A stretch of DNA of 64,000 nucleotides. It comes from Hyphomicrobiales bacterium (GTDB lineage Bacteria; Pseudomonadota; Alphaproteobacteria; Rhizobiales; JACESI01). Positions within the stretch are counted from its first letter, which is position 1, and every line of letters starts with the position of its first letter. The notes under the pieces were generated by a model. The model was not told the origin of the DNA, did no database searches, and worked only from the letters and a program-made list of their open reading frames with translations. The stretch is taken from assembly GCA_039973685.1 (NCBI GenBank), contig JBDWKL010000025.1, positions 1-64,000 of the forward strand. The letters are read 5' to 3'. A program made the translations under genes and the position numbers. Below are positions 20,362-37,995 of this stretch, piece after piece.

Positions 20362-21306
20362 CTAAAGACTGGGAACCGCGAACGTGCCTGCTGGTGGCGA
20401 CCCGACAATCGCCGTTATGAGGTTATCCAGCAATGACTGACGATTATACCCCTTACGCGAAACCACACCCAAGTCGCGTTTGTTGCCTGCATCTTCAAAA
20501 GGGATAAACGACAAACCCCATCGATCTTTCGTAAATTGCTCTGCTGCAATTGAGTTTACGATCGTGCAATCTTCACTATGGCTAATGTGTCGGCATACCG
20601 TTTCAAATCGAGCTGCGGTGACATCGAACTCTACTTTGCTTTCAGCTTCATCAGTCACCATTGGCAAGTCTTTCTCCAACTCGTAACCAAAGGGAATTGA
20701 GAAGCGGATAAGGCGGTCTGCTGGAACGTCTTTAGCTAAAATGCTTTTGCGGCTGGCTAAAGGTGTCCCCGCCTTTGCTGCAAGAAACAGGGGTTCCAGC
20801 CATAAAGACTGAAAAGAAAGGGTCGGTTTTTCCTGATTTTCACCCAGTTTATCAAAAGTCTTGCGGGCAAGAAGCGCCACATCGATCTCACGCGTTTCAA
20901 TTTTTCGAGCCAGTTGAACGGGCTTATCTTCCACCAAAACAACCCGCATGGAGGGATATAGATTACCGATTAGTTCGCGAAAGTAGCCAATGAGATAAGG
21001 TGCGAGTGTTGGCGTTATTCCAAGTTTAAACGGAAACGCTTCCTGATCTTTAAACTGCATTGCAACATCTTTAATCGCGCGCGTGTTGCTATTAATTGAG
21101 GCTGCTTTGTCGATTATAAGCGCACCAAATTCTGTCAGCAAAACTTCATTATGACGCCTATCGAAAATTTCGACGCCTAATTCCTGTTCGAGCTTTTTAA
21201 TCTGGCTGGATAAGGCAGGTTGCGAAACATTGCACGCAAGGGCTGCGCGGCTGAAATTCTTATGAACAGCAACCGCTTCCAAATATTCTAAATCTCTCAA
21301 ATTCAT
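20362..21306 (-). CDS. LysR-family regulator, OxyR-like branch
   Basis: The 314-aa protein has an N-terminal winged helix-turn-helix (residues 1-60: NFSRAALACNVSQPALSSQI) and a LysR effector domain starting FKLGITPTLAPYLIGY, which resembles OxyR. The OxyR redox motif (GHCxxxxxxxxC before the FRATSLETL segment) is not conserved at its usual place, so peroxide sensing is unlikely to be by the standard disulfide. It may respond to a small molecule. It lies 195 bp downstream of the divergent HIU hydrolase gene on the same strand. Whether it controls the purine-ring genes is unknown. Confidence 0.83.
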   Translation of the reverse strand: MNLRDLEYLEAVAVHKNFSRAALACNVSQPALSSQIKKLEQELGVEIFDRRHNEVLLTEFGALIIDKAASINSNTRAIKDVAMQFKDQEAFPFKLGITPTLAPYLIGYFRELIGNLYPSMRVVLVEDKPVQLARKIETREIDVALLARKTFDKLGENQEKPTLSFQSLWLEPLFLAAKAGTPLASRKSILAKDVPADRLIRFSIPFGYELEKDLPMVTDEAESKVEFDVTAARFETVCRHISHSEDCTIVNSIAAEQFTKDRWGLSFIPFEDAGNKRDLGVVSRKGYNRQSLLDNLITAIVGSPPAGTFAVPSL

Positions 21307-21502: not shown

Positions 21503-21889
21503 TTATGCGCCACCGCGAAACAATGAATAGCCCCATGCTGTAAATTTAAATGGCAGGTGAAAATGCTCTCCGGTCTTATCAATGCCAAAGTGGAAAATAG
21601 CTGTTTCCATAAAAGCGGGATCTGGAAGATCTGCCCCTAAGTTGCGAAAATAATCGCCGACGGAAAATTGCACACGATACATCCCTCGACGGACGCCCTG
21701 CCCCTTGGATACTGGATGCTGCAATAATCCTGAAACATCACAAGCACCTGAAGCGATTTCAATTTCTGTATCGCCTAAGAAAAATAGCCTTACCGCCAAT
21801 CCCTTGGCAGGAATACCATTGGCAACATCAACGGCATGGATTGATATGCCCCCAGCCGCCGCATTCGTGCTGTCATTACCTTGATCCAT
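21503..21889 (-). CDS. Divergent 5-hydroxyisourate hydrolase/transthyretin-like protein
   Basis: The 128-aa protein starts at an ATG after AAAGGAA. It has the transthyretin/HIUase fold signatures: ISIHAVDVANGIPAKGL at residues 15-31, MYRVQFSVGDYF, HFHLPFKF and a C-terminal YSLFRGGA. Canonical HIUases end in YRGS and have a DGR motif whose Arg is catalytic. Here the tail is FRGGA and the DGR position reads SGL, so the active-site Arg and the tail Ser are both altered. The two conserved His regions remain. It is divergent from the LysR gene at 22.1 kb and only 4.9 kb from a canonical HIUase (26.8 kb). It may act on a related ring compound or be a binding or regulatory homologue. Confidence 0.82.
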   Translation of the reverse strand: MDQGNDSTNAAAGGISIHAVDVANGIPAKGLAVRLFFLGDTEIEIASGACDVSGLLQHPVSKGQGVRRGMYRVQFSVGDYFRNLGADLPDPAFMETAIFHFGIDKTGEHFHLPFKFTAWGYSLFRGGA

Positions 21890-21968
21890 GACGGTTCCTT
21901 TTTACATGACCATGTGACTTACAAAGTTGCTCAATGTGCATTTAACAATGGGCGATAGTCAAAAAATT

Positions 21969-22017
21969 GTTCTAATTACAATTCACTATCATGCTAGTTT
22001 CATATAAAAATTAGAAT
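21969..22017. promoter_or_regulatory. Inverted repeat in divergent HIUase/LysR promoter region
   Basis: TTCTAATT (21970-21977) and its exact complement AATTAGAA (22009-22016) face each other 31 bp apart between the divergent hydrolase and LysR genes. The same half-site occurs upstream of the OHCU decarboxylase gene. It is a candidate binding site for the LysR regulator encoded next to it. Confidence 0.5.
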
Positions 22018-22102
22018 AGCTTATAAAGCGCAACCTGTCCTAACCCATATTCCAACCCTTTGAATATTGGGGGTTTCAACATCAAGCAAAAAGCGCAAGA
22101 CG

Positions 22103-23008
22103 ATGACACTTCACTTGGTTCCCCGCTCTCTTCAATATCTGGAATGCGTTGCAAAGCTTGGCTCTATTCAGGCCGCTTCTCGTGAACTTGGCATTTCTGC
22201 CTCTGCTGTTCATCGCCAAATTGTTCTTCTGGAAGAGATGCTGGGAGAGGCTTTGTTTAGCCGCGACACCAAGGGCGTGACACTTACTTATTCAGGGCGC
22301 CTGATCCTAGACATGTCTCGAAATTGGCGACTGGATAGCGTAAAATTACAGACCCTCATCCAAGCGCATAAAGGCGTTGAAACTGGGCAAGTGCGCATTG
22401 CAGCCATGGATAGCATGGTAAATGGGATTGTATTGGAACTAGTAAAACGGGTTTCAAAAGCTCATCCTAAAGTCACTTTAGAGATCGAAATTCTAAGTCC
22501 TAAAGATGCTGTTTCTGGCATTCGCAATGGGGATTTTGATATCGCCATTGTCTCGAACCCTGGCCCAGAGGAAAATTTAAAGTTCCATTGGTCGCGCGAA
22601 TTTGTTCTTGGCTGCATTGCAACACCTGAGCACCCACTCGCGCAAAAAAACAAAGTAAGCATTGAAGGACTTGCCAATCATTCTTTGGTATTCCAGAGCA
22701 AAACTCTAGCCATCCGCCAATTGTTAGAAGCTCATCATGGGTGGCTTTTTGATCATATCGAACATGCTGTCAGTGTGAATTCCATCCAATTGATGAAGCT
22801 TCTTGTCGCCTCTGGAAACTATATTGCGGTGACCTCGCAATTAGACGCGGCACCCGAGCTTGAAGCGCAAACGCTTACCTTCATCCCGATCAGTGATGAT
22901 GACACCTTCAACCAAACAATTGCTTTGGTATCCAACGCTCAAATGCCCGTTTCAATCATTTGTCGCAAAGTGCTCGAGATCACTAAAACCATTTTGGAAA
23001 CACATTAA
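22103..23008 (+). CDS. LysR-family regulator of the purine-ring/TTT operon (predicted)
   Basis: The protein is about 301 aa from ATG 22103; a TTG at 22067 would add 12 basic residues. The N-terminal helix-turn-helix reads GSIQAASRELGISASAVHRQ. A LysR substrate domain follows (residues about 90-295). The gene is divergent from the first HIUase-like gene and directly precedes, on the same strand, the OHCU decarboxylase-TctBAC operon. That position is typical of a local LysR activator whose effector is a pathway intermediate. Matching TTCTA/TAGAA elements lie in both promoter regions. The effector is unknown; urate, 5-hydroxyisourate and OHCU are candidates. Confidence 0.87.
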   Translation: MTLHLVPRSLQYLECVAKLGSIQAASRELGISASAVHRQIVLLEEMLGEALFSRDTKGVTLTYSGRLILDMSRNWRLDSVKLQTLIQAHKGVETGQVRIAAMDSMVNGIVLELVKRVSKAHPKVTLEIEILSPKDAVSGIRNGDFDIAIVSNPGPEENLKFHWSREFVLGCIATPEHPLAQKNKVSIEGLANHSLVFQSKTLAIRQLLEAHHGWLFDHIEHAVSVNSIQLMKLLVASGNYIAVTSQLDAAPELEAQTLTFIPISDDDTFNQTIALVSNAQMPVSIICRKVLEITKTILETH

Positions 23009-23054
23009 ACTTCGAGGCTGCGTTAAAGTGCCAGTAAAACGGCCGATATATTAT

Positions 23055-23092
23055 ATTCTAATAAATAGAATGGATTGTTATTTTTTATTCTA
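23055..23092. promoter_or_regulatory. Palindrome ATTCTA-N5-TAGAAT upstream of OHCU decarboxylase gene
   Basis: A perfect 6-bp inverted repeat (ATTCTA 23055-23060, TAGAAT 23066-23071) with an additional ATTCTA at 23087-23092 lies 56-93 bp before the GTG start at 23148. The half-site matches the one in the HIUase/LysR intergenic region. A LysR operator is a reasonable inference. Confidence 0.55.
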
Positions 23093-23147
23093 TAGACAGC
23101 AACAATCTGGAGTCATAGCCTTTTCCTAAATTAAGGGGTTTTGTGCT

Positions 23148-23687
23148 GTGAGTAGCCTAGAACATTTAAATAAGGCCGATAACGACCAAGCATTTCAACT
23201 GCTGGAACCTCTTATTGAACGCGCTCCTCATGTTGCAATTCGTGTTGCGGAAAAAAGACCTTTTAAAAATGCTGAAGAGATCGCTTTAGCTATCGCGGAG
23301 GAACTTCATAGCCTCGATGATGAAAGCCAAATTTCTCTTTTTAATTCTCACCCAGAATTGGCACCCGACAAGCCACTGGAAATGACACACGAATCCCAGA
23401 GCGAGCAAAACCGACTGCACCTAACTTCTGACTTTAACGCTGAAATTGCTCGGCTAAAAAAACTCAATTTAGAATACAAAGAGAAGTTCGGCTTCCCTTT
23501 CATCACAGCATTGGTGCGTCACGACAATTTGGCCAGTGTGCTTGACGAGTTCAAGGTTCGGTTATCGGGTAATAAAAAATCTGAAATAAGCAATGCGATT
23601 GAACAAGTCGTGATTGTTAGTAAAGCCCGTGTTTTGAAAAATTTTGACATTGCTACCAAGTCTGGAGTTTCAAATGAAACCAGATAG
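23148..23687 (+). CDS. uraD: 2-oxo-4-hydroxy-4-carboxy-5-ureidoimidazoline (OHCU) decarboxylase
   Basis: The 179-aa protein starts at a GTG with AAGGGG upstream. It has the family fold and motifs: a PFKNAEEIALAIAEELHSL helix, the FNSHPELA segment that carries the catalytic His and Glu, LNLEYKEKFGFPFITALVRH and a C-terminal helical part. The enzyme converts OHCU to S-allantoin, the last step of urate oxidation after urate oxidase and HIU hydrolase. The length is normal for a stand-alone enzyme. Its 3' end overlaps tctB by 14 bp, so transport and decarboxylation are translationally linked. Urate oxidase is not in the window, so either it is elsewhere or the imported compound enters below urate. 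Confidence 0.85.
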   Translation: MSSLEHLNKADNDQAFQLLEPLIERAPHVAIRVAEKRPFKNAEEIALAIAEELHSLDDESQISLFNSHPELAPDKPLEMTHESQSEQNRLHLTSDFNAEIARLKKLNLEYKEKFGFPFITALVRHDNLASVLDEFKVRLSGNKKSEISNAIEQVVIVSKARVLKNFDIATKSGVSNETR

Positions 23688-24168
23688 TGGCGAGGCAAAT
23701 TCATTAGATGACACATTGAGCGCACCAAAACAGCGCACTTGGGTGGGAACAATTGGAGCCATCCTCCTTTTAGTCCTCAGCCTCATTTTCATCGCAGGCG
23801 GCTTAGAGTTAGGTCTAGGCATACCAACACGGCTTGGGACAGGAGCCTTTCCGGTTCTTACAGGCCTTATTGTTCTCGTGCTTGCCCTCTTCATCTTCCT
23901 AGATGAGTTTCGTGGTGACGGCATTAAAGAAGCGCCAGACTGGATTGGTTTTTTAGCAATATCAGCAGCCATCGCGACCTTTGCATTGCTTGTTGACCGG
24001 CTAGGTCTTGTCCCAGCAGCTTTCCTATCCGTCGTCGTTGCCAGCATGCCAGATAAAAGCATTGGCTTCCCTTATAAGATTGTTTTAGGCGCGTTTGTTG
24101 CGCTTGGCTGTTGGGCACTTTTCATCAAGGCAATCAACTTGCCTTTCAAAGCATTTGTGGGAATTTGA
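23674..24168 (+). CDS. tctB: TTT transporter small membrane subunit TctB
   Basis: The protein is about 164 aa from ATG 23674, which has GGAG upstream and overlaps the decarboxylase gene; an earlier in-frame start is less likely. It has four predicted membrane helices (starting TIGAILLLVLSLIFIAGGLE) with the TctB-type pattern GLGIPTRLGTGAFPVLTGL. It forms the membrane part of the tripartite tricarboxylate transporter with TctA, driven by an ion gradient and fed by periplasmic TctC. tctA begins 1 bp after its stop. TctB-family proteins carry little substrate information; the neighbouring decarboxylase suggests a purine-ring acid. Confidence 0.88.
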   Translation: MKPDSGEANSLDDTLSAPKQRTWVGTIGAILLLVLSLIFIAGGLELGLGIPTRLGTGAFPVLTGLIVLVLALFIFLDEFRGDGIKEAPDWIGFLAISAAIATFALLVDRLGLVPAAFLSVVVASMPDKSIGFPYKIVLGAFVALGCWALFIKAINLPFKAFVGI

Positions 24169-24169
24169 G

Positions 24170-25717
24170 ATGGAAATTTTCGCAAGTTTTTACGATGGTC
24201 TCTTGGTTGTACTACAACCTGAAAACCTCATTTATTGCTTCATTGGCGTCTTCTTAGGAACCTTCATCGGCGTCCTTCCTGGCATTGGATCTATGGCGGC
24301 GATCTCAATGATTTTGCCATTGTCTTTTTCACTAGAACCAACCTCTGCACTCGTGATGATTGCCGGTGTATATTATGGGGCAGAATATGGCGGTTCTATC
24401 GCATCTATCTTGATGAATATCCCCGGTACACCTGCCGCTTCAATCACGGCGATTGAGGGATATCCTTTGGCCAAAAAAGGCCGTGCAGGCGTTGCCCTGT
24501 TTTCCACTGCGGCGGCATCATTCGGCGGTGGTATAATTGGGATGATCGTGATTGCGGTGCTATCGCCATCATTGGCGAAGCTGGCTCTATCTTTTGGTCC
24601 TGCTGATTATTTTGCCGTAATTTTATTAGGACTGATTGCGGCCTCAGTTGTGAGTAATGGCGGCGCACTTCGTGGTGTTGCAATGGTTATGCTCGGCTTA
24701 ATGCTTGGCACTATTGGTATTGACCTAACAACTGGCGATCTTCGCTTTACGATGGGCATTCCTGAATTACGCGATGGGGTACATATCGTAATCGTTGCGA
24801 TGGGCTTGTTTGGTGTCAGTGAACTTATTGCTTCTATCCGCACAAACAAAAATGGCGGCATGAAGCAAGAGATCGATTACAACGATTTTCACCCTTCCAA
24901 AGAAGAATGGAAATCGCTTATCGCACCGATCTTGCGTGGCAGCACTATTGGCTCCTTTTTTGGCGCATTGCCAGGAACGGGGCAAACCATTGCCGCGGCA
25001 ATTGCTTATGCGGTCGAAAAACGGATCAATCCCCTTCGCCATAAATTTGGAACGGGTGTTGTACCTGGTGTTGCAGTTCCAGAAGCCGCCAACAACTCAG
25101 CCACCCAAACAGCGTTTGTCCCAACATTGACACTGGGTGTCCCAGGCAGCCCGCCCATGGCCATCGTCATTGGTGCACTCATGATTTATGGTATTACGCC
25201 GGGCCCAAGATTGATATCAGAACAACCAGATTTATTCTGGGGGTTGGTCGCAAGCTTCCTTGTTGGAAACATCATGCTGATCATTTTGAATGTCCCCCTT
25301 ATTGGCATCTGGGTCAGGCTTTTGAAAATCCCATACAAGTACATGTATCCAACCATCATCGTGCTGATTTGTATTGGTGTGTATAGCCTCAATAACAACG
25401 TATTCGATGTATGGCTGACGCTGATTATTGGCGGCGCTGGCTACATCATGCGGCTCTTTAAATTTGAGCCCGCCCCCCTTTTACTAGGCTTTGTTCTTGG
25501 TCCCTTAATGGAAGAACAACTGCGTCGCGCAATGTTGCTATCGCGCGGCGACCCGATGGTGTTTTTAGAGCGCCCAATCAGCGCAACACTCATCACAATC
25601 ACCGTGGCTATTCTTGTTTTTGCCTTATACGCCACCCTTAGAAAACATCGGCACAAACGCGCCTTAAAGACGAATATAATTAATCAGAAAGGAATAAGTG
25701 ATGACGTTCAATCGTAG
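24170..25717 (+). CDS. tctA: TTT transporter large permease subunit TctA
   Basis: The protein is 515 aa from ATG 24170; the frame is open further upstream but that part belongs to tctB. It is a polytopic inner-membrane protein with about 11-12 helices and the two conserved TctA signatures: GTFIGVLPGIGSMAAISMIL near residue 28 and GALPGTGQTIAAAIAYAVEK near 270, followed by PEAANNSATQ. It is the translocating subunit. Gene order decarboxylase-tctB-tctA-tctC, with overlaps or minimal spacing, shows a single operon. The substrate is inferred from context only. Confidence 0.92.
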   Translation: MEIFASFYDGLLVVLQPENLIYCFIGVFLGTFIGVLPGIGSMAAISMILPLSFSLEPTSALVMIAGVYYGAEYGGSIASILMNIPGTPAASITAIEGYPLAKKGRAGVALFSTAAASFGGGIIGMIVIAVLSPSLAKLALSFGPADYFAVILLGLIAASVVSNGGALRGVAMVMLGLMLGTIGIDLTTGDLRFTMGIPELRDGVHIVIVAMGLFGVSELIASIRTNKNGGMKQEIDYNDFHPSKEEWKSLIAPILRGSTIGSFFGALPGTGQTIAAAIAYAVEKRINPLRHKFGTGVVPGVAVPEAANNSATQTAFVPTLTLGVPGSPPMAIVIGALMIYGITPGPRLISEQPDLFWGLVASFLVGNIMLIILNVPLIGIWVRLLKIPYKYMYPTIIVLICIGVYSLNNNVFDVWLTLIIGGAGYIMRLFKFEPAPLLLGFVLGPLMEEQLRRAMLLSRGDPMVFLERPISATLITITVAILVFALYATLRKHRHKRALKTNIINQKGISDDVQS

Positions 25718-26678
25718 AAAATTCTTAGGAACAACAATGGCAGTTTTTGCCATGCTTGCTTCGCCGTTTGCAGCAGCAGAGCCTGGCAAATGGAGCGATG
25801 ACCCAGTTCGCATCGTGGTGACTTTTCCACCAGGTGGAACAAGTGACCTTGTAGCAAGATTGCTTGCAAAACACCTTGGTGAAGATTTTGGGCAAAAAGC
25901 AGTCGTTGATAATCGTCCAGGTGCGGCTGGCACCGTTGCAGCTGACTTTGTTGCAAAACAGCCTAACGATGGCACAACATTGCTTCTTGCCAACAATGCG
26001 CCATTCACTATCGCGCCAACACGTTTCAAGTCGATCCCATTTGACCCGCGTACTGACTTTACCCACCTTGCTTACATAGGTGCATCCGCTCCGGGTCTAT
26101 TCGTTCAGCCATCCTCTGGCATTACGAACTTGAAGGAGTACATCGCCAAGGTAAAAGACGGTTCCTTGACTTACGGTTCTAGTGGGGTTGGTTCAATTTC
26201 TCACATTCTAGGTGAAGCCGTAGACGCTGCACTTGATGTGAAATCCATCCACGTGCCTTACAAAGGTAGCGCACCAGCTATTCAGGATTTCCGTGCGAAA
26301 GTTCTGGATACTTTTTATGACATGGCTGTTCAAAACAGCGATTTGATCGAGAACAAAGAAGCGATTGCAATCGCGATTGCATCCCCAGAGCGTAACCCTC
26401 AACTGCCTGATTTGCCGACATTCAAAGAACAAGGTTATGACGTGGTGATTGAAAACTGGGTTGGTGTTTCTGGCCCAAGTGGCATTGATGCAGCCAAGGC
26501 AAAACAGATCAACGAAACGATCAACGCCGTTTTTGCCAGTGAAGCAGTACAAAAGCGCCTAACTGAGCTCGGTATCACAAATCGTCCTATGTCTGTCGAA
26601 GGTTACACTGCCCTTGTTAGTGAGTTGATTGATGTATGGGCGCCATTGATTAAGTCTACTGGCATCGCTGAAAAGTAA
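25701..26678 (+). CDS. tctC: TTT periplasmic solute-binding protein TctC (Bug family)
   Basis: The protein is 325 aa from ATG 25701 with AGGA upstream. It has a twin-arginine-like signal (NRRKFLGTT, then a hydrophobic core ending AAAEP). Mature Bug-fold features are present: PVRIVVTFPPGGTSDLVARL, AGTVAADFVAKQ and LPTFKEQGYDV. It captures the ligand in the periplasm and delivers it to TctAB. Bug proteins usually bind carboxylates. Given the operon, 5-hydroxyisourate, OHCU, urate or a related ureido acid are possible ligands. A strong terminator follows 14 bp after the stop. Confidence 0.9.
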   Translation: MTFNRRKFLGTTMAVFAMLASPFAAAEPGKWSDDPVRIVVTFPPGGTSDLVARLLAKHLGEDFGQKAVVDNRPGAAGTVAADFVAKQPNDGTTLLLANNAPFTIAPTRFKSIPFDPRTDFTHLAYIGASAPGLFVQPSSGITNLKEYIAKVKDGSLTYGSSGVGSISHILGEAVDAALDVKSIHVPYKGSAPAIQDFRAKVLDTFYDMAVQNSDLIENKEAIAIAIASPERNPQLPDLPTFKEQGYDVVIENWVGVSGPSGIDAAKAKQINETINAVFASEAVQKRLTELGITNRPMSVEGYTALVSELIDVWAPLIKSTGIAEK

Positions 26679-26692
26679 GCCTAATGAGATTT

Positions 26693-26736
26693 AGAGGCGC
26701 TTGTGATTTTGATCACAAGCGCCTCTTTGATTTTTT
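26693..26736 (+). terminator. Strong Rho-independent terminator after tctC
   Basis: A 15-bp perfect stem (AGAGGCGCTTGTGAT at 26693-26707 and its complement at 26712-26726) with a TTTG loop is followed by TTGATTTTTT. It ends the decarboxylase-tctBAC transcript 35 bp before the second HIUase gene, so that gene depends on readthrough or its own promoter. Confidence 0.95.
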
Positions 26737-26770
26737 ATGTGAAGCAACTGCAAACTGAAGAAGAGACAAA

Positions 26771-27139
26771 ATGATGTCACTCAATAAACGCGGAAAACTG
26801 AGTACGCATATTTTGGATACATCTTTAGGGAGACCCGCTGCTGGCGTCAAAATTTCGCTAAGCCATATTGAGAATGAGGTCGCAACAGAAATTCTTTCTA
26901 CCTTGTCCAACGAAGACGGGCGAACAGACCATGCCCTTTTGACAGACGCCACCTTTCGGCTAGGAACTTATGAGCTAAAATTTCATGTAGGCCCTTATTT
27001 TAAAAACGTACCGCATGATGAAAGCACTTTGCCTTTTCTCGACATTATCCCAGTTCGCTTCACGCTATCCGAGATCGACCACTATCATGTTCCACTGCTT
27101 GTTTCCCCGTACAGTTATTCAACCTATAGAGGGAGCTAG
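26771..27139 (+). CDS. uraH: 5-hydroxyisourate hydrolase (canonical)
   Basis: The 122-aa protein has all HIUase signatures: LSTHILDTSLGRPAAGV at the N-terminus (catalytic His), NEDGRTD (catalytic Arg), HYHVPLLVSPYSYSTYRGS at the C-terminus (second His and the YRGS tail). It hydrolyses 5-hydroxyisourate to OHCU, the substrate of the decarboxylase 3 kb upstream. There is no signal peptide, so it is cytoplasmic. With uraD, TctBAC and the divergent hydrolase it forms the urate-oxidation branch of this region. Confidence 0.95.
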   Translation: MMSLNKRGKLSTHILDTSLGRPAAGVKISLSHIENEVATEILSTLSNEDGRTDHALLTDATFRLGTYELKFHVGPYFKNVPHDESTLPFLDIIPVRFTLSEIDHYHVPLLVSPYSYSTYRGS

Positions 27140-27259
27140 AGCTCAATGCGGCCTTTCAATGTGCCTGACCATGATTTCAGAAATTTCTGACTAACTTTTT
27201 ATTGCATCTCAATTTATGGTATGTGCGCAATGGGCTCTACTTGCACATAAGGTGTACTA

Positions 27260-28795
27260 TTGAAAACTGTTTCAAAATTTTCAGATTATAAAACCATCTG
27301 CGCTGGTTGGATTGCGATGATACTGCTGTGTAGTGCTGTCATCTCCATTTACGATTATCAAAATTTCAAAACGAGACTTTCAGACGAAGGCGATGCGATT
27401 GCGCGATTGGCATCACAACGAGCTGACCAACATGATGCCCATTTGACATCGTTGTCAGCAATCGCGACAGCTGGCCCTGTTGTGCGCCGCGATCTATTTC
27501 TTGATGTTGCTGAGACCATTATGCGGTTTTACCCACGCATTGTTAATGTGAATCTTATCAGCTTGCAGGACGGAAAATTTATAATAAGCACCAATGATCA
27601 AAGCAATCCTGACCTTGCCGAACAGATGGTCGATGCGGCGCAAACGACGACTGGTTCATTACAGCTTCGTTCTAATCCAGTTGATCCTGAAACCTATTTG
27701 TTGATTAAGCGCAGCCCTAACTCTAATTCCGCAAAATATGCCCTCGCCCTAACAATAGATGGTGCAGCACTCATTGAGACAGAGTCTGATTTTTGGAAAT
27801 CAAATAGTTTTCGGTATCGATTATCTTTGCCAGACGGCGCTTTCTTAAGTGGTCATAACGAAAGTACAGCTCCAACTTTTTCAAAAGATCTAGGGAGTTT
27901 ATCTCAGCCCCTCACCTTGAACTTCTGGTCGTTGCCGTTTGGTCCCAAATCAATCTCGTGGTCAAGAATTGCATTGGTGAGCTTTTTAGCCACCATCGTC
28001 TATATCAGTTTGATCATCGGGATTAGGCAATATTTGAGAACGCGCCACGCGGAAAAAAATGCTCTGTTGAGCGCTCAAGATGCGCGCCTTGCTCATGCGT
28101 CACGCGTCAATGCCCTTGGTGAAATGGCTAGTGGGTTGGCTCATGAACTCACGCAACCTTTGACCGCTATTTTGAGCCAATCGCAAGCAGGTAAACATTT
28201 GGCAACAAGAGGCGATGCACCCGCTCTTATCCCCGTTCTTGATGATACAATCACACAAGCAAAACGCGCGTCGATCATACTTGAACGGATGCGCCGTTGG
28301 ACGAAACCTAGCCGTGGACCAGTCACTCAGAGTTCATTGTCCAACGCTGCAAATGTCGTGAAAGAGTTGCTCGCACCAGAAGCCAGCAGGCAATCAACGA
28401 AGCTCATTTTCAAATTTGACAAGACATTGCCATACACCATCCAAGCCGAACCAATCGAGTTGGAGCAAGTCATTTTTAATCTGGTGCGAAATGCATTGGA
28501 TGCTGTTCAAGATGTGGCCAACCCAACGGTTGAAATTGAAATCCTGATGGCCAGCGATACAGTTTCTCTGGTTGTCTCAGATAATGGAATTGGTTTGCCA
28601 GATGACATCAAAGCCCGCTTGTTTGAACCCTTTGTTACAAGCAAGCCAGAGGGGACAGGTTTAGGACTGGCTCTATGCCAACGTTTAGTGGAACGAATGG
28701 ACGGTGAAATTTCTGCCACTGAAAATGACGGACATACTATTCTTACAGCTATATTCCCAAGGGCAGATAGTCACGTGCAGGTAGCCGCGCAATGA
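27260..28795 (+). CDS. Membrane sensor histidine kinase (FixL/DctB-like)
   Basis: The 511-aa protein starts at a TTG preceded by AAGGTG. Two membrane helices (about residues 15-33 and 233-257) enclose a periplasmic sensor of about 200 residues. The cytoplasmic part has HisKA with GEMASGLAHELTQPLTAILS (phospho-His in AHELTQPL, DctB/FixL class) and a HATPase domain with DNGIGLP and GTGLGLALCQ. It overlaps its response regulator by 4 bp (ATGA). The periplasmic sensor has no recognised motif. Secreted HbpS-like and solute-binding proteins encoded just downstream could be accessory sensors (inference). Confidence 0.9.
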   Translation: MKTVSKFSDYKTICAGWIAMILLCSAVISIYDYQNFKTRLSDEGDAIARLASQRADQHDAHLTSLSAIATAGPVVRRDLFLDVAETIMRFYPRIVNVNLISLQDGKFIISTNDQSNPDLAEQMVDAAQTTTGSLQLRSNPVDPETYLLIKRSPNSNSAKYALALTIDGAALIETESDFWKSNSFRYRLSLPDGAFLSGHNESTAPTFSKDLGSLSQPLTLNFWSLPFGPKSISWSRIALVSFLATIVYISLIIGIRQYLRTRHAEKNALLSAQDARLAHASRVNALGEMASGLAHELTQPLTAILSQSQAGKHLATRGDAPALIPVLDDTITQAKRASIILERMRRWTKPSRGPVTQSSLSNAANVVKELLAPEASRQSTKLIFKFDKTLPYTIQAEPIELEQVIFNLVRNALDAVQDVANPTVEIEILMASDTVSLVVSDNGIGLPDDIKARLFEPFVTSKPEGTGLGLALCQRLVERMDGEISATENDGHTILTAIFPRADSHVQVAAQ

Positions 28796-29400
28796 ACCAT
28801 CCAGTTTACCTCGTTGATGATGACAAAGCGGTGCGCGGTGCTTTGGCTCTGCTCCTGAAAACGGTAGGCGTTGATGTTCACACCTTTGGAGGTCCAGAGG
28901 AATTACTCAACAAGATTAACTCTCTACCAAGAGGCTGTCTGGTTCTGGATATTAGAATGCCGATGATCACCGGTCTAAAGTTACAAGAAAAGTTGCAGGA
29001 ACTGCAATTTGATTGGCCAACGATCATCATCAGCGGACACGGTGACATTGATGCCTGCCGCCGTGCTTTTCGCAATGGCGCCATCGACTTTTTGAGCAAA
29101 CCAATTGACGAGCAAGACTTGATTGACGCGATCCAAAAAGGGCTTTCGATGGTTGAAAAAAGCAATCAACTTGAAGCTGAAACAAAAGAAGTTTTGCGCC
29201 TATTTGAACAATTATCGAAACGAGAAAAAGAAGTGCTCGATTTGGTCGTGCGTGGAATTACAAGCCAGCAAATAGCCGAAGCTTTATCGCTGTCACCCCG
29301 CACCGTGGAAAGTCACCGTGCCTCTATTGGCAATAAGCTTGGAACAACGTCGACAGCAGAACAAACGCGATTATGGCAAGAGGCCCACAATACTCCGTAG
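28792..29400 (+). CDS. FixJ/NarL-type response regulator
   Basis: The 202-aa protein has an N-terminal receiver domain (VDDDK acidic site, phosphoacceptor in LDIRMPMITG, the conserved Lys in LSKPIDEQD) and a C-terminal LuxR-type helix-turn-helix (LSKREKEVLDLVVRGITSQQ, then LSLSPRTVESHRASIGNKLG). It is the cognate transcription factor of the overlapping kinase gene. Likely targets are the downstream HbpS-ankyrin-solute-binding-protein genes or the TTT/HIUase genes, but no binding site was identified. Confidence 0.92.
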   Translation: MNHPVYLVDDDKAVRGALALLLKTVGVDVHTFGGPEELLNKINSLPRGCLVLDIRMPMITGLKLQEKLQELQFDWPTIIISGHGDIDACRRAFRNGAIDFLSKPIDEQDLIDAIQKGLSMVEKSNQLEAETKEVLRLFEQLSKREKEVLDLVVRGITSQQIAEALSLSPRTVESHRASIGNKLGTTSTAEQTRLWQEAHNTP

Positions 29401-29489
29401 ATATACGCAGTGCCGTGGGAAAAATACGAATATCGTCAGTTATTAGGAAGGCGTAGCTTTTGAGCGTAACTCATTTTTGGAGAACTCTC

Positions 29490-29972
29490 ATGAAACGCAT
29501 TCTTATTACAGCAGCAATGGCTCTCACATCTACTGTAGCTCTTGCTCAAGACCTTCCAACGGCTCCTTACTTGCCGCTTGATATGGCATCAAAAGCTGCT
29601 CACAAAGCGCTAGAAGCATGTGCTGCTAAAGGCTTCAACGTAACGGTTGCAATCGTTGCACGCAGCGGTGAAACCAAAGTTCTTTTGAGCGCTGACAATG
29701 CTGGCCCTCACTCTGTAGGCAGCAGCACAGGTAAAGCTTTTACATCAGCAAGCATGGGCCGCGATACAGCAAGCCTTGCAGGCTTTATCGGCGCAAAACC
29801 TGAAAATGGTGGTCTTCGCGATATGGACAGCCGTCTTGTTATTCAAGCTGGTGGTCTTCCAATCAAATTTGCTGGCAAGCTTGTTGGCGGTATCGGTGTA
29901 GGTGGCGCACCATCTGGCGCGATTGATGCGGAATGTGGTCGTACAGGCTTGGACGCAATTAGCGCAGAATAA
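29490..29972 (+). CDS. Secreted HbpS/GlcG-domain protein
   Basis: The protein is 160 aa from ATG 29490, with GGAG upstream. It begins with a Sec signal peptide (MKRILITAAMALTSTVALAQ, cleavage after ALAQ). The mature part is a single HbpS/GlcG (DUF336) domain: ASKAAHKALEACAAKGFNVTVAIVA near its start, then GKAFTSASMGR and GGLPIKFAGKLVGGIGVGG. Members bind haem or small molecules; in Streptomyces reticuli HbpS partners the SenS/SenR two-component system. Here the gene follows a two-component pair by 89 bp, the same arrangement. Its ligand is not known. Confidence 0.85.
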   Translation: MKRILITAAMALTSTVALAQDLPTAPYLPLDMASKAAHKALEACAAKGFNVTVAIVARSGETKVLLSADNAGPHSVGSSTGKAFTSASMGRDTASLAGFIGAKPENGGLRDMDSRLVIQAGGLPIKFAGKLVGGIGVGGAPSGAIDAECGRTGLDAISAE

Positions 29973-29980
29973 TTAAATTT

Positions 29981-30006
29981 GGTCTGCTCTTTCATGAGAG
30001 CAGACC
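29981..30006 (+). promoter_or_regulatory. Intercistronic hairpin between HbpS-like and ankyrin genes
   Basis: GGTCTGCTCT (29981-29990) pairs with AGAGCAGACC (29997-30006) around a 6-nt loop. No T-tract follows, so this is more likely an mRNA-stabilising or processing hairpin that raises expression of the secreted HbpS-like protein than a full terminator. Confidence 0.6.
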
Positions 30007-30025
30007 ATCTACACTGGAGGGTACT

Positions 30026-30703
30026 ATGCTACGTTTTTTGCTTGTTTCTGTAGGCCTCTTTTTAAATTTTGAAGCGTCCGCGCAAACCAAACCGTCTTCA
30101 AGCCAAATAGAAAAATACACTGGCTTACATAAAGCAGCTCATGAAAACGATATCGGTGCGATCAATACATTTGTGAAAAATGGTGCCGATCTAAACGCCC
30201 GCGATGGCTCGCGCCGGACACCAATCCACGTTGCGGCTTTTGCCTCAAATGATGAGGCGCTCATTGCACTTGCAAAAGCTGGAGCAGATATGAATGCTCT
30301 TGAGTATGGCGTTTATGATGTTGTTACCATCGCGGCAGTAGCAAATGATCCAGACCTCATGTCAATTGCATTGCAGTTTGGTAATCGCGCAGACCTTACG
30401 ACAAGCATTTATGATGGCACCGCATTAATTGCAGCCGCTCATCTTGGCCATGCAGAAGTTGTCAGACGCTTGATCAAAGCTGGCGCGCCCTTGGATCATA
30501 TCAATAACCTGCATTGGACAGCACTCATTGAGGCCGTGATCTTGGGGGATGGTGGGCGTAATCACACAGAGACTGTGAAAGCATTGGTTGAAGCTGGGGC
30601 CGACATCTCGGTAGGTGATCGTGACGGTGTCACTGCCTTAGCTCATGCTGAAAGTCGTGGTTACAAAAAAATTGCTGAGATTATTCGCAATAGCAAAAAG
30701 TAA
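30026..30703 (+). CDS. Secreted ankyrin-repeat protein
   Basis: The 225-aa protein starts at ATG with GGAGGG upstream. A signal peptide (MLRFLLVSVGLFLNFEASAQ) is followed by about five ankyrin repeats (residues 35-220; TGLHKAAHENDIGAINTFVK, GTALIAAAHLGHAEVVRRLI and similar). It probably acts as a periplasmic protein-interaction scaffold. Periplasmic ankyrin proteins such as AnkB of Pseudomonas accompany peroxide defence, which is a possible parallel because urate oxidation yields hydrogen peroxide (inference). It lies between the HbpS-like gene and two solute-binding protein genes on the same strand. Confidence 0.85.
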   Translation: MLRFLLVSVGLFLNFEASAQTKPSSSQIEKYTGLHKAAHENDIGAINTFVKNGADLNARDGSRRTPIHVAAFASNDEALIALAKAGADMNALEYGVYDVVTIAAVANDPDLMSIALQFGNRADLTTSIYDGTALIAAAHLGHAEVVRRLIKAGAPLDHINNLHWTALIEAVILGDGGRNHTETVKALVEAGADISVGDRDGVTALAHAESRGYKKIAEIIRNSKK

Positions 30704-30733
30704 GATCCGCATATTGTTCGAGGAGAATATGAA

Positions 30734-31783
30734 ATGAATAGACGTCAACTGATGACGGGCTTGGTCTCATTAAAACTGGCCTCATCTCTTTCACTCCCAG
30801 CGATTGCACAGTCCAAATTAAAACCAATTAGAATGCTGCTAAATACTGGCGCATCTGGACCTCAAGCTTGGTTCTTTCTAGCGCAGGACCGTGGTTATTT
30901 TGCCGATGAGGGAATAGATATTTCTTTCGCACCTGGATATGGCGCTTATACGGCCGCGCCACGGCTGATGAATGAAGAATTTGATATTGGCTACGGCGAC
31001 ATCAACTCATTAATTGAGGTAAGTGCCACCCGTCCCCACAAAGCACCAGTTGGTGTTTTCGCCCTTTTTAATGCATCACCATCCACTATTGCAGTTCCTG
31101 CCAATGGCCCAATAAAAAGCCCTAAAGATTTAGAAGGAAAGACACTGGTCGGCCATCCAAGTGATGTAGCACTTCGGACATTTGGTGCATTTTGCAAGGT
31201 GAATGGCATTGATCAGTCGAAGGTGAAGGTTGGCAATTTTGGCAGTGGATTTAGAACACAGCTTCAAACAATGCTGGCCACGAATAATGTCGATGGTGTG
31301 TTTGGTTACGTCAGTACGATTTCATCAGCAATGTCGCGAGACGACGACGATCAAAACCACCTCCTTCGTCACCTTTCATTCGCAGAACACGCGCCTGATC
31401 TCTATGGCAGTACGATTATGGCGACCCGCAAAATGTTAAGCGCTGATCCAGATAGCATTGCAGGCATTGTAAGAGCCGTGAACCGTGGGATTCATGATGC
31501 AATTACCGACCCAGAAGCCGCCATTGATGCGGTAATGCGCCGAGCAAAGTTTTCATCCCGCACCTCTCAGATGCTGCGCTTTACAACCACCATTGAAATT
31601 GAAATGGGCCATAAAGAAGGCAAGCGCATTGGCATTGGTGCGGTGGATGAGATGCGACTTCAACGATCCATCGAGTTGATCGCATCAACCAACAAATTAC
31701 CGCGCGTTCCTAGCCAAAGCGAAATATTCACAGATCGCTTTTTGCCATCGCTCAATGAACGTGTACGCCATTTAGCGGGCTAA
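30734..31783 (+). CDS. Orphan NMT1/SsuA-like solute-binding protein, copy 1
   Basis: The 349-aa protein has a twin-arginine-like signal (NRRQLMTGLVSLKLASSLSL..AIAQ). The mature protein has the NMT1/THI5-like ABC binding fold: PIRMLLNTGASGPQAWFFLA, QDRGYFADEGIDISFAPGYG, then DIGYGDINSLIEV and LEGKTLVGHPSD. No permease or ATPase gene is adjacent. It is a paralogue of the next gene (same length, many shared motifs). The ligand is unknown; the NMT1 fold often binds pyrimidine- or sulfonate-like compounds. It may feed a distant ABC transporter or act as a sensor for the upstream kinase. Confidence 0.86.
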   Translation: MNRRQLMTGLVSLKLASSLSLPAIAQSKLKPIRMLLNTGASGPQAWFFLAQDRGYFADEGIDISFAPGYGAYTAAPRLMNEEFDIGYGDINSLIEVSATRPHKAPVGVFALFNASPSTIAVPANGPIKSPKDLEGKTLVGHPSDVALRTFGAFCKVNGIDQSKVKVGNFGSGFRTQLQTMLATNNVDGVFGYVSTISSAMSRDDDDQNHLLRHLSFAEHAPDLYGSTIMATRKMLSADPDSIAGIVRAVNRGIHDAITDPEAAIDAVMRRAKFSSRTSQMLRFTTTIEIEMGHKEGKRIGIGAVDEMRLQRSIELIASTNKLPRVPSQSEIFTDRFLPSLNERVRHLAG

Positions 31784-31806
31784 AAACTCTTGAAGAGGTT
31801 TTACAA

Positions 31807-32856
31807 ATGAATGACATAAATCGACGCCATCTCATTGGTGGTCTTGCAAGTACAGCGCTTGCGGGGCTGACTACATCTGTTGTCGCGAAAAACAACAATC
31901 TCAAATTGCTGTTGAATACCTCTTTCTCTGGCCCAGTCGCCTTTTTTCTTCTAGCCCAAGACAAGGGCTACTATCGCAAAGAGGGCTTGAACATGAAGTT
32001 CTCGCCCGGCGGAGGAGCGGCTGCTATTATCCCACGTGTGCGTCACGGTGATTTTGATGCAGGTTATGGTGATATAACAGCCTTGATCGAACGCATCGCA
32101 AGGAGCCCGAAAGATAAAGGGCCAGTTGCCGTCTTTACAACATTCAATGCAGTTCCTTTTACCATTGCCGTTGCAGCAGATGGCCCTATTAAAACGCCCA
32201 AAGACCTAGAAGGACGCATTGTCAGCGGCCATGGCAGTGATGCGGCGTTGATCACGTTCGATATGTTTGCAAAGGCCACGGGAATTGACGCAAGCAAAGT
32301 CCAAATCAAGCGCTCGGGCGGGGGCATGGGCCAACAAGTCGTCGATGTTTTGAACGGTAAGAATGCGCACGGTGTCTTTGGCTTTGTTCAAACTATCATA
32401 GCAACGACGGCCTCTTATGGCGTTAAGCCAAAGGATATTCGGTTTTTGGAATATGCAGACTACATTCCCGATATGTATGGGAACACACTTTTTGTGACAC
32501 GCGAGACCTATGAAACAAGGACAAGCGAAATTGCTGGTTTGGTCCGCGCTACAAACCAAGGTCTAAGTGATACGGTCTTAAATACAGAAGAAGCGATGGA
32601 CGCATTAGGGCGGCGCGTTGGAAATAGCCGTCGGTCAATCAACGAAACAAGACTTATTGGTACATTACGCACAGAAATGGCTCATCCTGAAGGCGCACGA
32701 ATTGGAATTGGCGAAATGGATGACGACAGGCTTGAACGGCTTATTCGCCTTATTGTGAAAACAAAAAGCTTACCGCGAACGCCTAGTGTTCGAGAAGTGT
32801 TTGACCGTCGTTTTTTACCGCCGCTAAGCGAGCGTGTCGTCAGTTTGGGTCAATAG
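31807..32856 (+). CDS. Orphan NMT1/SsuA-like solute-binding protein, copy 2
   Basis: The 349-aa protein has a twin-arginine-like signal (INRRHLIGGLASTALAGL). Its mature fold parallels copy 1: LKLLLNTSFSGPVAFFLLAQ, DKGYYRKEGLNMKFSPGGG, DAGYGDITALIERI, LEGRIVSGHGSD. It starts 23 bp after copy 1, so tandem duplication is likely. The ligand loops differ (GGGAAAI in place of GYGAYTA), suggesting related but distinct ligands. The 3' end overlaps the convergent adenine deaminase gene by 7 bp, and no transporter membrane or ATPase genes follow. Confidence 0.86.
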   Translation: MNDINRRHLIGGLASTALAGLTTSVVAKNNNLKLLLNTSFSGPVAFFLLAQDKGYYRKEGLNMKFSPGGGAAAIIPRVRHGDFDAGYGDITALIERIARSPKDKGPVAVFTTFNAVPFTIAVAADGPIKTPKDLEGRIVSGHGSDAALITFDMFAKATGIDASKVQIKRSGGGMGQQVVDVLNGKNAHGVFGFVQTIIATTASYGVKPKDIRFLEYADYIPDMYGNTLFVTRETYETRTSEIAGLVRATNQGLSDTVLNTEEAMDALGRRVGNSRRSINETRLIGTLRTEMAHPEGARIGIGEMDDDRLERLIRLIVKTKSLPRTPSVREVFDRRFLPPLSERVVSLGQ

Positions 32857-33881
32857 TCACTCCGGCGAACGTCATCCACGCAAGCATCGATTTTGTCCAA
32901 TTGAGCTTGTTTGTCTCGGTCATCAAGGAATGAAGCGGCAAAGGAGTTTTTGGCAAGAGTGATCAACTCATTCTCGTTCAAATTAAGAGCATCATGCACC
33001 GCGCGATAATTGTCGTTCAGATAACCGCCAAAATAAGACGGATCGTCTGAATTCACCGTAACCAATAAGCCTGCATCTAAAGCCTTTTTCACGGGGCTTG
33101 CAGCAAGTGACGGTATGCCCTTCAAGCGCCAATTGGAGATCGGGCACATGGTGAGCGGAGTTTGCTGTTTTGCCAGACGCTTGATCAAGGCAGGATCATC
33201 AAAAGCGTGGTTGCCGTGGTCTACCCGCTCAATCTTCAAAATATCAAGCGCGTCTTTAACATTCTCTGCCGTGCCCTCCTCGCCCACATGAGCAACAGGC
33301 ACAAAGCCCTCATTGCGCGCTTCTTCAAACACGCGGGTAAACTTCTCAGGCGGATGCCCTGCCTCTGAACTATCAAGCCCCACGCCATAAATATGTTCTT
33401 TGTTTTTGCAAGCGCATTCCAAGGCCTCAAAGGCTTCCTCTTCTGGCAAATGACGCAAGAAGCACATGATCAGCTTGGAGGTGATGTTTAGCTCTCTATG
33501 CGCCTTCTCCAAAGCAGAGACGATGCCGCCCAAAACTGTATCAAACTTAATGCCGCGATCAGTGTGGGCTTGTGGGTCAAAGAACATTTCAACATGGGTA
33601 AGACCATCCGCGTGTACGCGCTCAAGATAGGCCCATGTTAGATCGTGAAAATCTTGCTCGGTGATCAACACCGACATGCCCATATAATAAAGGTCGAGAA
33701 AATCTTGCAAGCAATCGAACTCGTAAGCGGCCCGCACATCCTCCACCTCATCATAGGGAAGTTTGATGTTGTTGCGTTTCGCCAGCGCCAGCATCATTTC
33801 AGGCTCAAGAGTTCCCTCGATATGTAGGTGCAGTTCCGCCTTTGGTAGGCGATCTATCAGTTGTTCCGCGATGCTTTTCAT
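32850..33881 (-). CDS. Adenine deaminase (Aah1-type, amidohydrolase)
   Basis: The protein is about 343 aa from ATG 33881 (GGA upstream; an upstream in-frame start at 33917 is less likely). It belongs to the adenosine/adenine deaminase superfamily: HLHIEGTLEPEMMLALAKRN (zinc-binding HxH; EGTLEPE is typical of the adenine-specific branch rather than the GALRP/GSLRP of adenosine deaminases), HVGEEG (catalytic His/Glu), VDHGNH, and NSDDPSYFGG (zinc-binding Asp). Likely reaction: adenine to hypoxanthine plus ammonia. It lies 90 bp after the ligase gene on the same strand, so it may be cotranscribed with the sulfoacetate-type operon, and it borders the purine-ring module. Confidence 0.85.
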   Translation of the reverse strand: MKSIAEQLIDRLPKAELHLHIEGTLEPEMMLALAKRNNIKLPYDEVEDVRAAYEFDCLQDFLDLYYMGMSVLITEQDFHDLTWAYLERVHADGLTHVEMFFDPQAHTDRGIKFDTVLGGIVSALEKAHRELNITSKLIMCFLRHLPEEEAFEALECACKNKEHIYGVGLDSSEAGHPPEKFTRVFEEARNEGFVPVAHVGEEGTAENVKDALDILKIERVDHGNHAFDDPALIKRLAKQQTPLTMCPISNWRLKGIPSLAASPVKKALDAGLLVTVNSDDPSYFGGYLNDNYRAVHDALNLNENELITLAKNSFAASFLDDRDKQAQLDKIDACVDDVRRSDY

Positions 33882-33971
33882 AACTAATCCAACCCTTACA
33901 TCAGTCGATGGTTGCAAAAAGAACTCGAATGTTAGGCAGAGTTATGACGGTGAGCAAGGGCGCGTTATATG

Positions 33972-36928: not shown

Positions 36929-36946
36929 AAAACTCACCTTTCGAAG

Positions 36947-36969
36947 GTGGGTGGCACAATGCCACCCAC
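36947..36969 (-). promoter_or_regulatory. Intercistronic hairpin between tctC and sauS
   Basis: GTGGGTGGCA (36947-36956) and its complement TGCCACCCAC (36960-36969) form a 10-bp stem with a 3-nt loop. There is no T-tract. Position after the solute-binding protein gene is typical of hairpins that stabilise the upstream mRNA and give more binding protein than enzymes. Confidence 0.65.
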
Positions 36970-36993
36970 TACTATTGTTTGGATGTAAGAGCC

Positions 36994-37962
36994 TTATAGG
37001 CCTTTTAAAAGCTCTGTAAGGGTCGCTTGGCGCTTATCCCACATTGCAATCACTTCATCACGGCTCATAATGTGCATTGGCGAACCACCCGCTTTCATGC
37101 GTTTTTCAACACGGGCATGTTTGAACATTTCCGGCACTTTCGCAGCCAACACGTCGATCACTTCCTGCGGTGTTCCTTTTGGCACCATAAGACCACGGAA
37201 GTTGACGGATGAATTATCAACATCAAGGCCCGCTTCTTTCATGGTTGGGACGTCTGGCAAGAATGCATTGCGCTCAAGGTCTGCAACACCCAGAATTTTC
37301 ACGGTGCCAGCTTGTTGTGCGCGGAATGCATCAGACAGATTGTTGACGCCTGCGAGCACTTCACCCGCAATAACAGCTTTCATTGCCGCAGCACCGCCAC
37401 CCTTTGTTGGGATATAGGCAAGTTTGCATTCACATGCTTTTTCAATTTGAAGGGCTGCAATATGGTGACCCACGAACAGGCCAGCGCCCGACGTTGTTGT
37501 TTTGCCTGGATTGGCTTTGGCAAACGTCACCAAGTCTTCCATGGAGTTAAACTTAGAATCCTTACCCACCACAACAACAGCAGGGTCAGCGCCCCAGTTG
37601 GCGATTGGCTCAAAGGAATCCTTTGAATATTTAACGCCGCCTTTGATGCTTTGCGCGATGAAATGCGGAATGTTGTAGGCAGACATCGTATAGCCATCTG
37701 CTTCTGCATCCGTTGCAAACCAGTTCCAGCCTTTGCGGCCACCAGCACCCGGTTTGTTGAGAATGTAGATTGGCTGGCCCAGTTGATCTTCATTACCAGC
37801 CACCATTGTTACGATGCGCGCCTGAAAGTCAGTCGCTCCTCCTGCACCATAAGAAACAGCAACGCCAATGGGGCGATCTGGATAATCAGCAGCAACAGAT
37901 AAGCCTGCAGCACTCGCTAAAACAAAGGCACTTGCCAAAGCTGTTTTTAGTAATCTTCTCAT
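36994..37962 (-). CDS. tctC: TTT periplasmic solute-binding protein TctC (second system)
   Basis: The 322-aa protein starts at ATG with GGAGGAAA upstream. A Sec signal peptide (MRRLLKTALASAFVLASAAG..VAA) precedes the Bug-fold domain: YPDRPIGVAVSYGAGGATDF, then LNKPGAGGRKGWNWFATDA and LPDVPTMKEAGLDV. It should bind the carboxylate handled by the downstream enzymes; sulfoacetate is the inference. It is clearly different in sequence from the TctC at 25.7 kb. It is the third gene of tctA-tctB-tctC-sauS-sauT. Confidence 0.9.
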   Translation of the reverse strand: MRRLLKTALASAFVLASAAGLSVAADYPDRPIGVAVSYGAGGATDFQARIVTMVAGNEDQLGQPIYILNKPGAGGRKGWNWFATDAEADGYTMSAYNIPHFIAQSIKGGVKYSKDSFEPIANWGADPAVVVVGKDSKFNSMEDLVTFAKANPGKTTTSGAGLFVGHHIAALQIEKACECKLAYIPTKGGGAAAMKAVIAGEVLAGVNNLSDAFRAQQAGTVKILGVADLERNAFLPDVPTMKEAGLDVDNSSVNFRGLMVPKGTPQEVIDVLAAKVPEMFKHARVEKRMKAGGSPMHIMSRDEVIAMWDKRQATLTELLKGL

Positions 37963-37995
37963 GTCGTTTCCTCCCGTATGAAAATAAATGATCGT

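Follow-up and report, generated by a model that had tools for sequence, protein, structure and literature searches.

What would a tripartite tricarboxylate transporter (TTT) import when its genes are interlocked with those of urate-type enzymes? The question is raised by a gene cluster in a 64,000-nucleotide stretch of DNA from a Hyphomicrobiales bacterium (GCA_039973685.1, contig JBDWKL010000025.1, positions 1 to 64,000), referred to here as the window. An earlier note on this DNA described a gene for 2-oxo-4-hydroxy-4-carboxy-5-ureidoimidazoline (OHCU) decarboxylase, uraD, that overlaps tctB, with tctA and tctC next and with two genes of the 5-hydroxyisourate (HIU) hydrolase (HIUase) family and a LysR gene in flanking positions. 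This layout is correct in both order and strands. Gene assignments in the region are Pfam matches over cut-off, and the central genes are:

21503–21889, minus strand: UraH1, an F-type HIUase paralogue (PF00576, HIUase/transthyretin, E = 4.3e-21)
22067–23008, plus strand: LysR2, a regulator that recurs with the module (PF00126/PF03466)
23148–23687, plus strand: UraD*, an OHCU-decarboxylase paralogue (PF09349, E = 3.7e-30)
23644–24168 (open reading frame, ORF; ATG at 23674), plus strand: TctB, the small membrane subunit (PF07331, E = 1.6e-10)
24095–25717 (ORF; likely ATG at 24170), plus strand: TctA, the large membrane subunit (PF01970, E = 9.2e-154)
25698–26678, plus strand: TctC, the periplasmic solute-binding protein (PF03401, E = 2e-48)
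26771–27139, plus strand: UraH2, a canonical-type HIU hydrolase (TIGR02962, 125.3 bits against a cut-off of 87.45)

The UraH1 gene is divergent to that of LysR2. The tctB start codon lies inside uraD, giving a 14-base overlap, and the tctC ORF begins within tctA. The TctA start at 24170 was chosen from the translation, the ORF itself opening at 24095. Membership of the TTT family follows from TctA, TctB and TctC being encoded together, each over its Pfam cut-off.

Conservation of the importer and enzyme gene set

The close association of a TTT importer with a UraD/HIUase-family gene set is both genuine and conserved. Selection for a related UraD or F-type HIUase gave 46 loci for comparison, and in 27 of them the genes for F-type HIUase, UraD, LysR, TctA and TctC all lie within 8 kb; a further 10 carry the whole set except TctA. 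By record name or family, 17 of the 27 belong to the Rhodobacterales. A matching LysR gene is found near the UraD or F-type HIUase gene in 40 of the 46 loci. A Tct match within about 7.5 kb of a canonical uraD gene was found in none of 20 control loci of the order sample (taken as next in score and not at random, one of them cut at a contig end), so that the pairing of uraD with a TTT exceeds what chance would give. The earlier note had named confinement to this one genome as an outcome that would speak against its proposal, but the uraD–TTT–HIUase set is conserved in other genomes.

On a plasmid of Defluviimonas sp. SAOS-178_SWC the order is HIUase–LysR–(NMT1 protein)–uraD–tctBAC, followed by malate synthase G and then by PuuD (2.5 kb from tctC), UraH and PuuE. 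A plasmid of Paracoccaceae strain La 6 has LysR–uraD–HIUase–tctBA and then a TctC-matching gene that is annotated as argininosuccinate lyase. Within the order sample, UraD matches of at least 185 bits occur in six other genomes. LysR–UraD–TctB–TctA and an F-type HIUase are present in G040, G184 and G116, and three genomes of one genus have the UraD without a TTT, two of these with LysR and TRAP genes. A scan for F-type HIUases across 84,980 species, one genome per species, with the best 80 of 193 relatives kept, added TTT modules in Ruegeria marina, Loktanella, Pseudoruegeria, Kangsaoukella, Stappia, Jannaschia, Marivita, Rhodovulum, Albimonas, Epibacterium and Tritonibacter, among others. Six contigs that had been fetched twice (L132, L133, L143, L175, L189, L194) were left out of counts and trees.

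Searches baited with TctA recover the association as well. A TctA match occurs in 813 plasmid records, and the two that have more than 60% identity both lie in the module, while the next three viewed (54.6–58.5%) have no UraD or UraH in the stretch shown. With at most three candidates scored per genome, the 397 genomes of the order gave four TctAs at least 77% identical to the bait, all four within the module; UraD or UraH was found within about 7 kb of none of the next six (57–65%). In a tree without rows shorter than 350 residues, 25 module TctAs form one clade (support 100/99).

Enzyme subfamilies with altered positions

The active site of HIU hydrolase, as described for kpHIUH, consists of His7, Arg41, His92, Tyr105 and the C-terminal Ser108 (PMC8272043), and matching TTL residues are given in PMC2834698. 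Two Arg41 residues anchor the attacked carbonyl, and Ser108 orients HIU via its backbone (PMC8272043). The counterparts in UraH1 are H18, L55, H111, F124 and G127. Both catalytic His are thus kept, at H18 and H111, while the C-terminal end is SLFRGGA and not of the YRGS type; a lysine, K115, occupies the position four residues past the second His (His92+4). UraH1 falls below the TIGR02962 equivalog cut-off (69.7 vs 87.45 bits), which UraH2, with the Arg41 of its DGR motif and a YRGS end, passes.

The same pattern holds across 102 F-type and 22 canonical rows (127 rows less three own-genome repeats, L105–L107), all 124 of which have both catalytic His. Arg41 is present in 0/102 F-type and 22/22 canonical rows; Tyr105 is likewise canonical in 22/22 and is Phe in every F-type row, and Ser108 is absent from 100 of the 102. 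Lys at His92+4 is found in 102/102 F-type and 0/22 canonical rows, a figure that is partly circular for the pattern-found loci because the scan pattern contained the Lys; in the 30 profile-found loci the corresponding counts are 22/22 and 0/8. A single branch with 100/100 support splits F-type from canonical proteins in the UraH tree, for which one in four of the F-type rows from L164–L207 was used and the three own-genome repeats were included. Judged by these residues, UraH1 is not a canonical HIU hydrolase; Lys115 may take over the role of Arg41. In the plasmid records viewed, F-type proteins are annotated as hydroxyisourate hydrolase, and such annotations may be wrong.

UraD* narrowly passes TIGR03164 (99.8 vs 96.25 bits). 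In a tree of 72 UraD rows it does not group with the canonical enzymes but falls in a separate 31-row clade (support 100/90) that does not include the second UraD copy of the genome, on contig C43. Twenty-five rows of the clade come from TTT modules and six from loci without a TTT (L044, L045, L046, L048, L103, L104); two rows of the f20 set (G067, G022) and ten betaproteobacterial rows branch between this clade and the other 29 rows. His68, Ser83, Glu86-Gln87 and Arg161 are kept in 72/72 rows, the His, Glu-Gln and Arg being what we take to be the catalytic positions. Position 89, beside Glu86-Gln87, is Arg in 31/31 UraD* and 12/12 intermediate rows. Of the other 29 rows, L089 and L191 have Arg there and L173 has Lys, and all three of these UraDs adjoin an F-type HIUase; the remaining 26 have neither residue there, L160 and the canonical Defluviimonas copy, which share a locus with an F-type gene, included. 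The UraD of Roseateles that lies beside an NMT1 protein and an ABC importer has no Arg89. A UraD–TctC fusion suggested by a long open frame in G067 is ruled out, as a stop lies between the two. In three loci of one genus (L048, 8848–10404; L103, 8901–10457; L104, 8778–10334), UraD* continues in frame and stop-free into a TRAP binding protein of the DctP type, the two being separated by a signal-peptide-like stretch, which points to either a decarboxylase–solute-binding protein fusion or an internal start.

F-type genes also occur in other arrangements. Several Hydrogenophaga loci and Ramlibacter have LysR–UraD–TctC–F-type with no TctA in view. The betaproteobacterial loci L160 and L191 have canonical UraH and UraD next to TctC and the F-type gene (and L160 has PuuD as well), and L173 has its F-type gene next to UraD and a PuuE-like gene. 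L135 and L136 encode BMP/PnrA-like binding proteins, a family name that we take to indicate a link to purine nucleosides, between their TctC and F-type genes, and L142 does so beside its F-type gene. Loci L008–L010, L084–L099 and L157–L207 combine an F-type HIUase with a Pot/Phn-like ABC importer, often with a major facilitator superfamily (MFS) carrier and amidases, and some ABC-importer loci have PuuE-like genes near the F-type gene. In one locus, L088 (G353), an F-type HIUase is found together with TctC, TctA and LysR genes, ABC genes, an M20 peptidase-type gene, one amidase and two each of PuuE-like genes and amidohydrolases.

The canonical urate pathway and a proposed role of the module

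The lack of a urate oxidase and an allantoinase remarked on in the earlier note is true of the region and not of the genome. Another contig, C43, encodes a PuuD that shares 62% identity with the protein annotated as such in Defluviimonas, a canonical UraH with a YRGS end, a PuuE–UraD fusion (the second UraD copy) and a match to ureidoglycolate lyase, as well as an ORF that presumably specifies (S)-ureidoglycine aminohydrolase. With a full urate pathway on C43, the uraD/HIUase set of the window is a second, paralogous one, and UraH2 is the second canonical HIUase copy of the genome besides the C43 UraH. The module as a stand-in for a missing urate pathway is therefore ruled out.

Co-residence is general. 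Of 25 TTT-type genomes, 24 have an additional HIUase-family gene of at least 108 bits besides the F-type gene, with DGR and YRGS in 24/24; in G407, a metagenome-assembled genome, no canonical HIUase was found besides the F-type gene. This rules out the F-type protein as the only HIUase of its genomes, G407 apart, and makes it an addition to the canonical enzyme and no substitute. The UraD* genomes without a TTT (G182, G244, G225, G172) have a single HIUase-family match each, which is canonical. PuuD, sought with the PuuD protein itself as query, is present in 28/29 module genomes as compared with 253/397 genomes of the order, and PuuE is over cut-off in 23/29. Canonical urate genes stand close to the module in the window itself, as they do in Defluviimonas, G351 and three betaproteobacterial loci.

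With gene content, synteny, the two altered enzyme subfamilies and co-residence with the canonical pathway established, a function can be proposed from the chemistry of these families. On balance it seems probable, if only just, that this is an importer-coupled catabolic module, in which the TTT imports a urate-related acid and the altered HIUase/UraD pair opens and decarboxylates it. TctC would capture the organic acid in the periplasm, in some lineages helped by NMT1- or BMP/PnrA-type binding proteins, for import by TctA–TctB. The F-type HIUase would then hydrolyse a ring amide using its two retained catalytic His, in a pocket from which the Arg of HIU hydrolase has gone and in which the Lys four residues past the second His is fixed. 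UraD* would decarboxylate the product with its retained residues and the added Arg beside Glu-Gln, and the resulting compound may join the ordinary ureide route, whose genes lie elsewhere in the genome. LysR2 is the probable regulator of the operon.

The idea that a TTT is tied to urate-type enzymes, as first proposed for this locus, is borne out by its conservation. HIU and OHCU themselves as the substrates are doubtful, since the F-type protein has lost the Arg and Tyr and 24/25 genomes hold a separate canonical HIUase. Basic residues in both subfamilies, taken with carboxylate importers, suggest a substrate with one more carboxylate than HIU or OHCU; as candidates we would consider uroxanate (2,2-diureidomalonate), oxonate and alloxanate. 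A fuller version can be put forward tentatively, as a possibility more doubtful than the general proposal: a second branch of ureide catabolism that takes in a stable carboxylated product of urate oxidation (for example uroxanate- or alloxanate-like) through a TTT, an orphan TctC or another importer, and feeds it by way of an HIUase-derived hydrolase (Lys for Arg41) and a UraD-derived, Arg-adapted decarboxylase into the ureide pathway.

Several observations weigh against an importer-coupled, urate-related module. The sequence of TctC does not name its ligand, because its solved relatives (Bug27, BugD and a terephthalate-binding protein) bind varied acids. The purine link rests on co-occurrence, and the presence of PuuD in 12/12 order-sample genomes with UraD* or the f20 set (one-sided Fisher p = 0.004) overstates it, as genomes of one order are related. 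The same gene set occurs in G067 and G022 with a TctA that is 46% identical to that of the window and falls outside the clade of module TctAs. Of the 102 F-type genes, 58 have neither a Tct gene nor a UraD within 8 kb, and the two enzymes therefore need not act in series; four UraD* loci without a TTT among the 46 also have no F-type gene. TRAP permease matches lie near UraD* in L045, L046 and L048, but this link is weak, the in-frame UraD–DctP genes apart, because such matches lie within about 6 kb of canonical UraD in 4/20 controls as well (L120, at 7446–8045, L108, L110 and L112). Loss of Ser108 in itself means little, as the S108A change in kpHIUH cost little activity (PMC8272043). Finally, the presence of canonical UraH2 in the window cluster agrees with plain HIU chemistry.

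This last point bears on the first of the alternatives, in which the TTT imports urate, HIU or OHCU and the module enzymes are inducible second copies with ordinary HIU/OHCU chemistry. UraD*, with all the residues that we take to be catalytic and a score over the TIGR03164 cut-off, would fit such a role, as would the near-constant presence of PuuD in module genomes and G407, where no canonical HIUase was found besides the F-type gene. The hydrolase that the modules conserve is nevertheless the F-type one, without Arg41 (the residue that anchors the attacked carbonyl in kpHIUH) or Tyr105 in any row and without Ser108 in nearly all, and a canonical HIUase gene is already at hand in 24 of the 25 genomes. 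HIU and OHCU are, in addition, short-lived. Second copies of this kind are considered fairly unlikely.

An imported acid unrelated to purines, such as a lactam or cyclic imide whose opening and decarboxylation would suit these folds, is a further alternative, and an unlikely one. It draws on the 58 F-type genes without Tct or UraD, of which 55 have an ABC binding-protein match and 51 an amidase match nearby (Azospirillum, Bradyrhizobium and Azorhizobium provide examples); many of these hydrolases stand beside ABC importers, MFS carriers and AS-family amidases, and relatives of the NMT1 proteins occur with AllB-type and other amidohydrolases. The PuuD count speaks against it, as do the loci that adjoin canonical urate genes and the BMP/PnrA-like proteins of some modules, if their presumed purine-nucleoside link holds. 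A non-enzymatic role, with F-type protein and UraD* controlling uptake as cytosolic binders or signalling proteins, much as vertebrate transthyretin is a binding protein that came from HIU hydrolase, is very improbable: a missing Arg and YRGS end also separate transthyretin from HIUases (PMC2834698), but transthyretin has Lys15 and Thr106 (PMC2834698) where 102/102 F-type proteins keep both catalytic His, and the His, Glu-Gln and Arg are kept in 31/31 UraD*.

Neighbouring genes and known systems

Beyond the cluster proper, the region contains the following genes, assigned in the same way:

20362–21306, minus strand: LysR regulator
27260–28795, plus strand: histidine kinase (HK)
28792–29400, plus strand: response regulator (RR)
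29460–29972, plus strand: HbpS-like protein
30026–30703, plus strand: ankyrin protein
30734–31783, plus strand: NMT1-like binding protein a (PF09084)
31807–32856, plus strand: NMT1-like binding protein b (PF09084)

The two-component system and the four following proteins were at first seen as the module's own sensor set, and this group divides. The four-gene order HK–RR–HbpS–ankyrin recurs on Pseudosulfitobacter and Maritalea plasmids, where the stretch shown contains neither a TTT nor a urate gene, for which reason it was rejected as a sensor belonging to the module; the four genes (27260–30703) are probably a separate sensory unit. Some findings count against this rejection. The Defluviimonas cassette shares a plasmid with the module, at a distance of 26 kb, and adjoins an allantoicase/ureidoglycine aminohydrolase gene; in Paracoccus, HK–RR–HbpS lies beside another TTT; in Martelella it occurs with a nucleoside deaminase gene and an ankyrin gene just upstream, with no TTT in view; and the modules of L042 and L129 have an ankyrin homologue nearby. 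The HK–RR–HbpS genes of Ensifer and Sinorhizobium have no Tct match in view. The cassette, a block that recurs on other plasmids, is a possible redox or haem sensor.

As for the NMT1 part of the proposed sensor set, relatives of the window proteins are found in a minority of the loci, 6 of the 46 (L003, L049, L050, L131, L142 and, at a contig end, L153). Both window proteins are about 42% identical to the NMT1 protein of the Defluviimonas module. For protein a, this protein and a Roseateles protein adjoining uraD are the first two listed of 226 plasmid records; for protein b, the Defluviimonas protein (41.9%) is fourth listed of 136. The Roseateles locus (L226, strain XES5 plasmid) has LysR–NMT1 protein–uraD–ABC importer beside nucleobase:cation symporter-2 and nucleoside deaminase genes. 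Two further loci, L227 and L228 (Skermanella, Azospirillum), have LysR–NMT1 binding protein–short-chain dehydrogenase/reductase with an ABC importer and AllB-type and other amidohydrolases, L227 additionally with a ring-opening amidohydrolase, and cyclic-ureide catabolism is a possible function of these.

Further along the window, positions 32850–41129 hold a cluster mostly on the opposite strand, with a second TTT (TctA2 at 38454, TctB2 at 37996, TctC2 at 36994), an acylating sulfoacetaldehyde dehydrogenase, SauS (NF047625, 679.5 against a cut-off of 600), a CoA ligase, an adenosine deaminase and a LacI regulator. By its gene content this looks like sulfoacetate use with a TTT importer. Large RTX-repeat proteins with CHRD or Calx-beta domains are encoded at 15833–19996 and 3525–5801, together with an HlyD/ABC pair at 12632–15762.

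Among known systems, the canonical UraH–UraD pair with PuuD/PuuE shares both enzyme families, the catalytic positions of UraD and the genome itself with the module. It differs in that the module enzymes form separate clades, the F-type protein without Arg41 and YRGS and UraD* with Arg89, and in that the module is tied to an importer and its cluster contains no oxidase. For urate oxidation, a location on the cytosolic side has been suggested in work on PuuD, which refers to UraH and UraD as cytosolic (PMC4562309). TTT clusters with known ligands, in which TctA, TctB and TctC are similarly encoded with catabolic genes, include TphC/TpiBA (terephthalate), SlcHFG (sulfolactate), TctCBA (dithiodipropionate), BugD and BugE (PMC5812351); the words 'urate' and 'purine' do not occur in the main text of that review. 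A precedent for pairing a decarboxylase gene with a TTT-type importer is provided by the arylmalonate decarboxylase loci of proteobacteria, where TTT, TRAP or ABC importers are interchangeable (PMC4996985). That decarboxylase belongs to the Asp/Glu-racemase superfamily, unlike UraD*, and the available part of the paper names no ring hydrolase or urate gene. Vertebrate transthyretin is, like the F-type protein, an HIUase-fold paralogue without the YRGS end, and differs in that the F-type protein keeps both catalytic His (PMC2834698). Searches of open-licence papers found no description of a TTT paired with UraH or of FRGG-type HIUase paralogues, and nothing on uroxanate.

Judged from sequence comparison, the novelty of the module is its two diverged enzyme subfamilies tied to importers. 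It connects TTT importers with ureide-like chemistry and leads to a short list of candidate ligands that can be tested. Confirmation would mean a new uptake route and enzyme pair in the purine/ureide nitrogen cycling of marine and soil bacteria.

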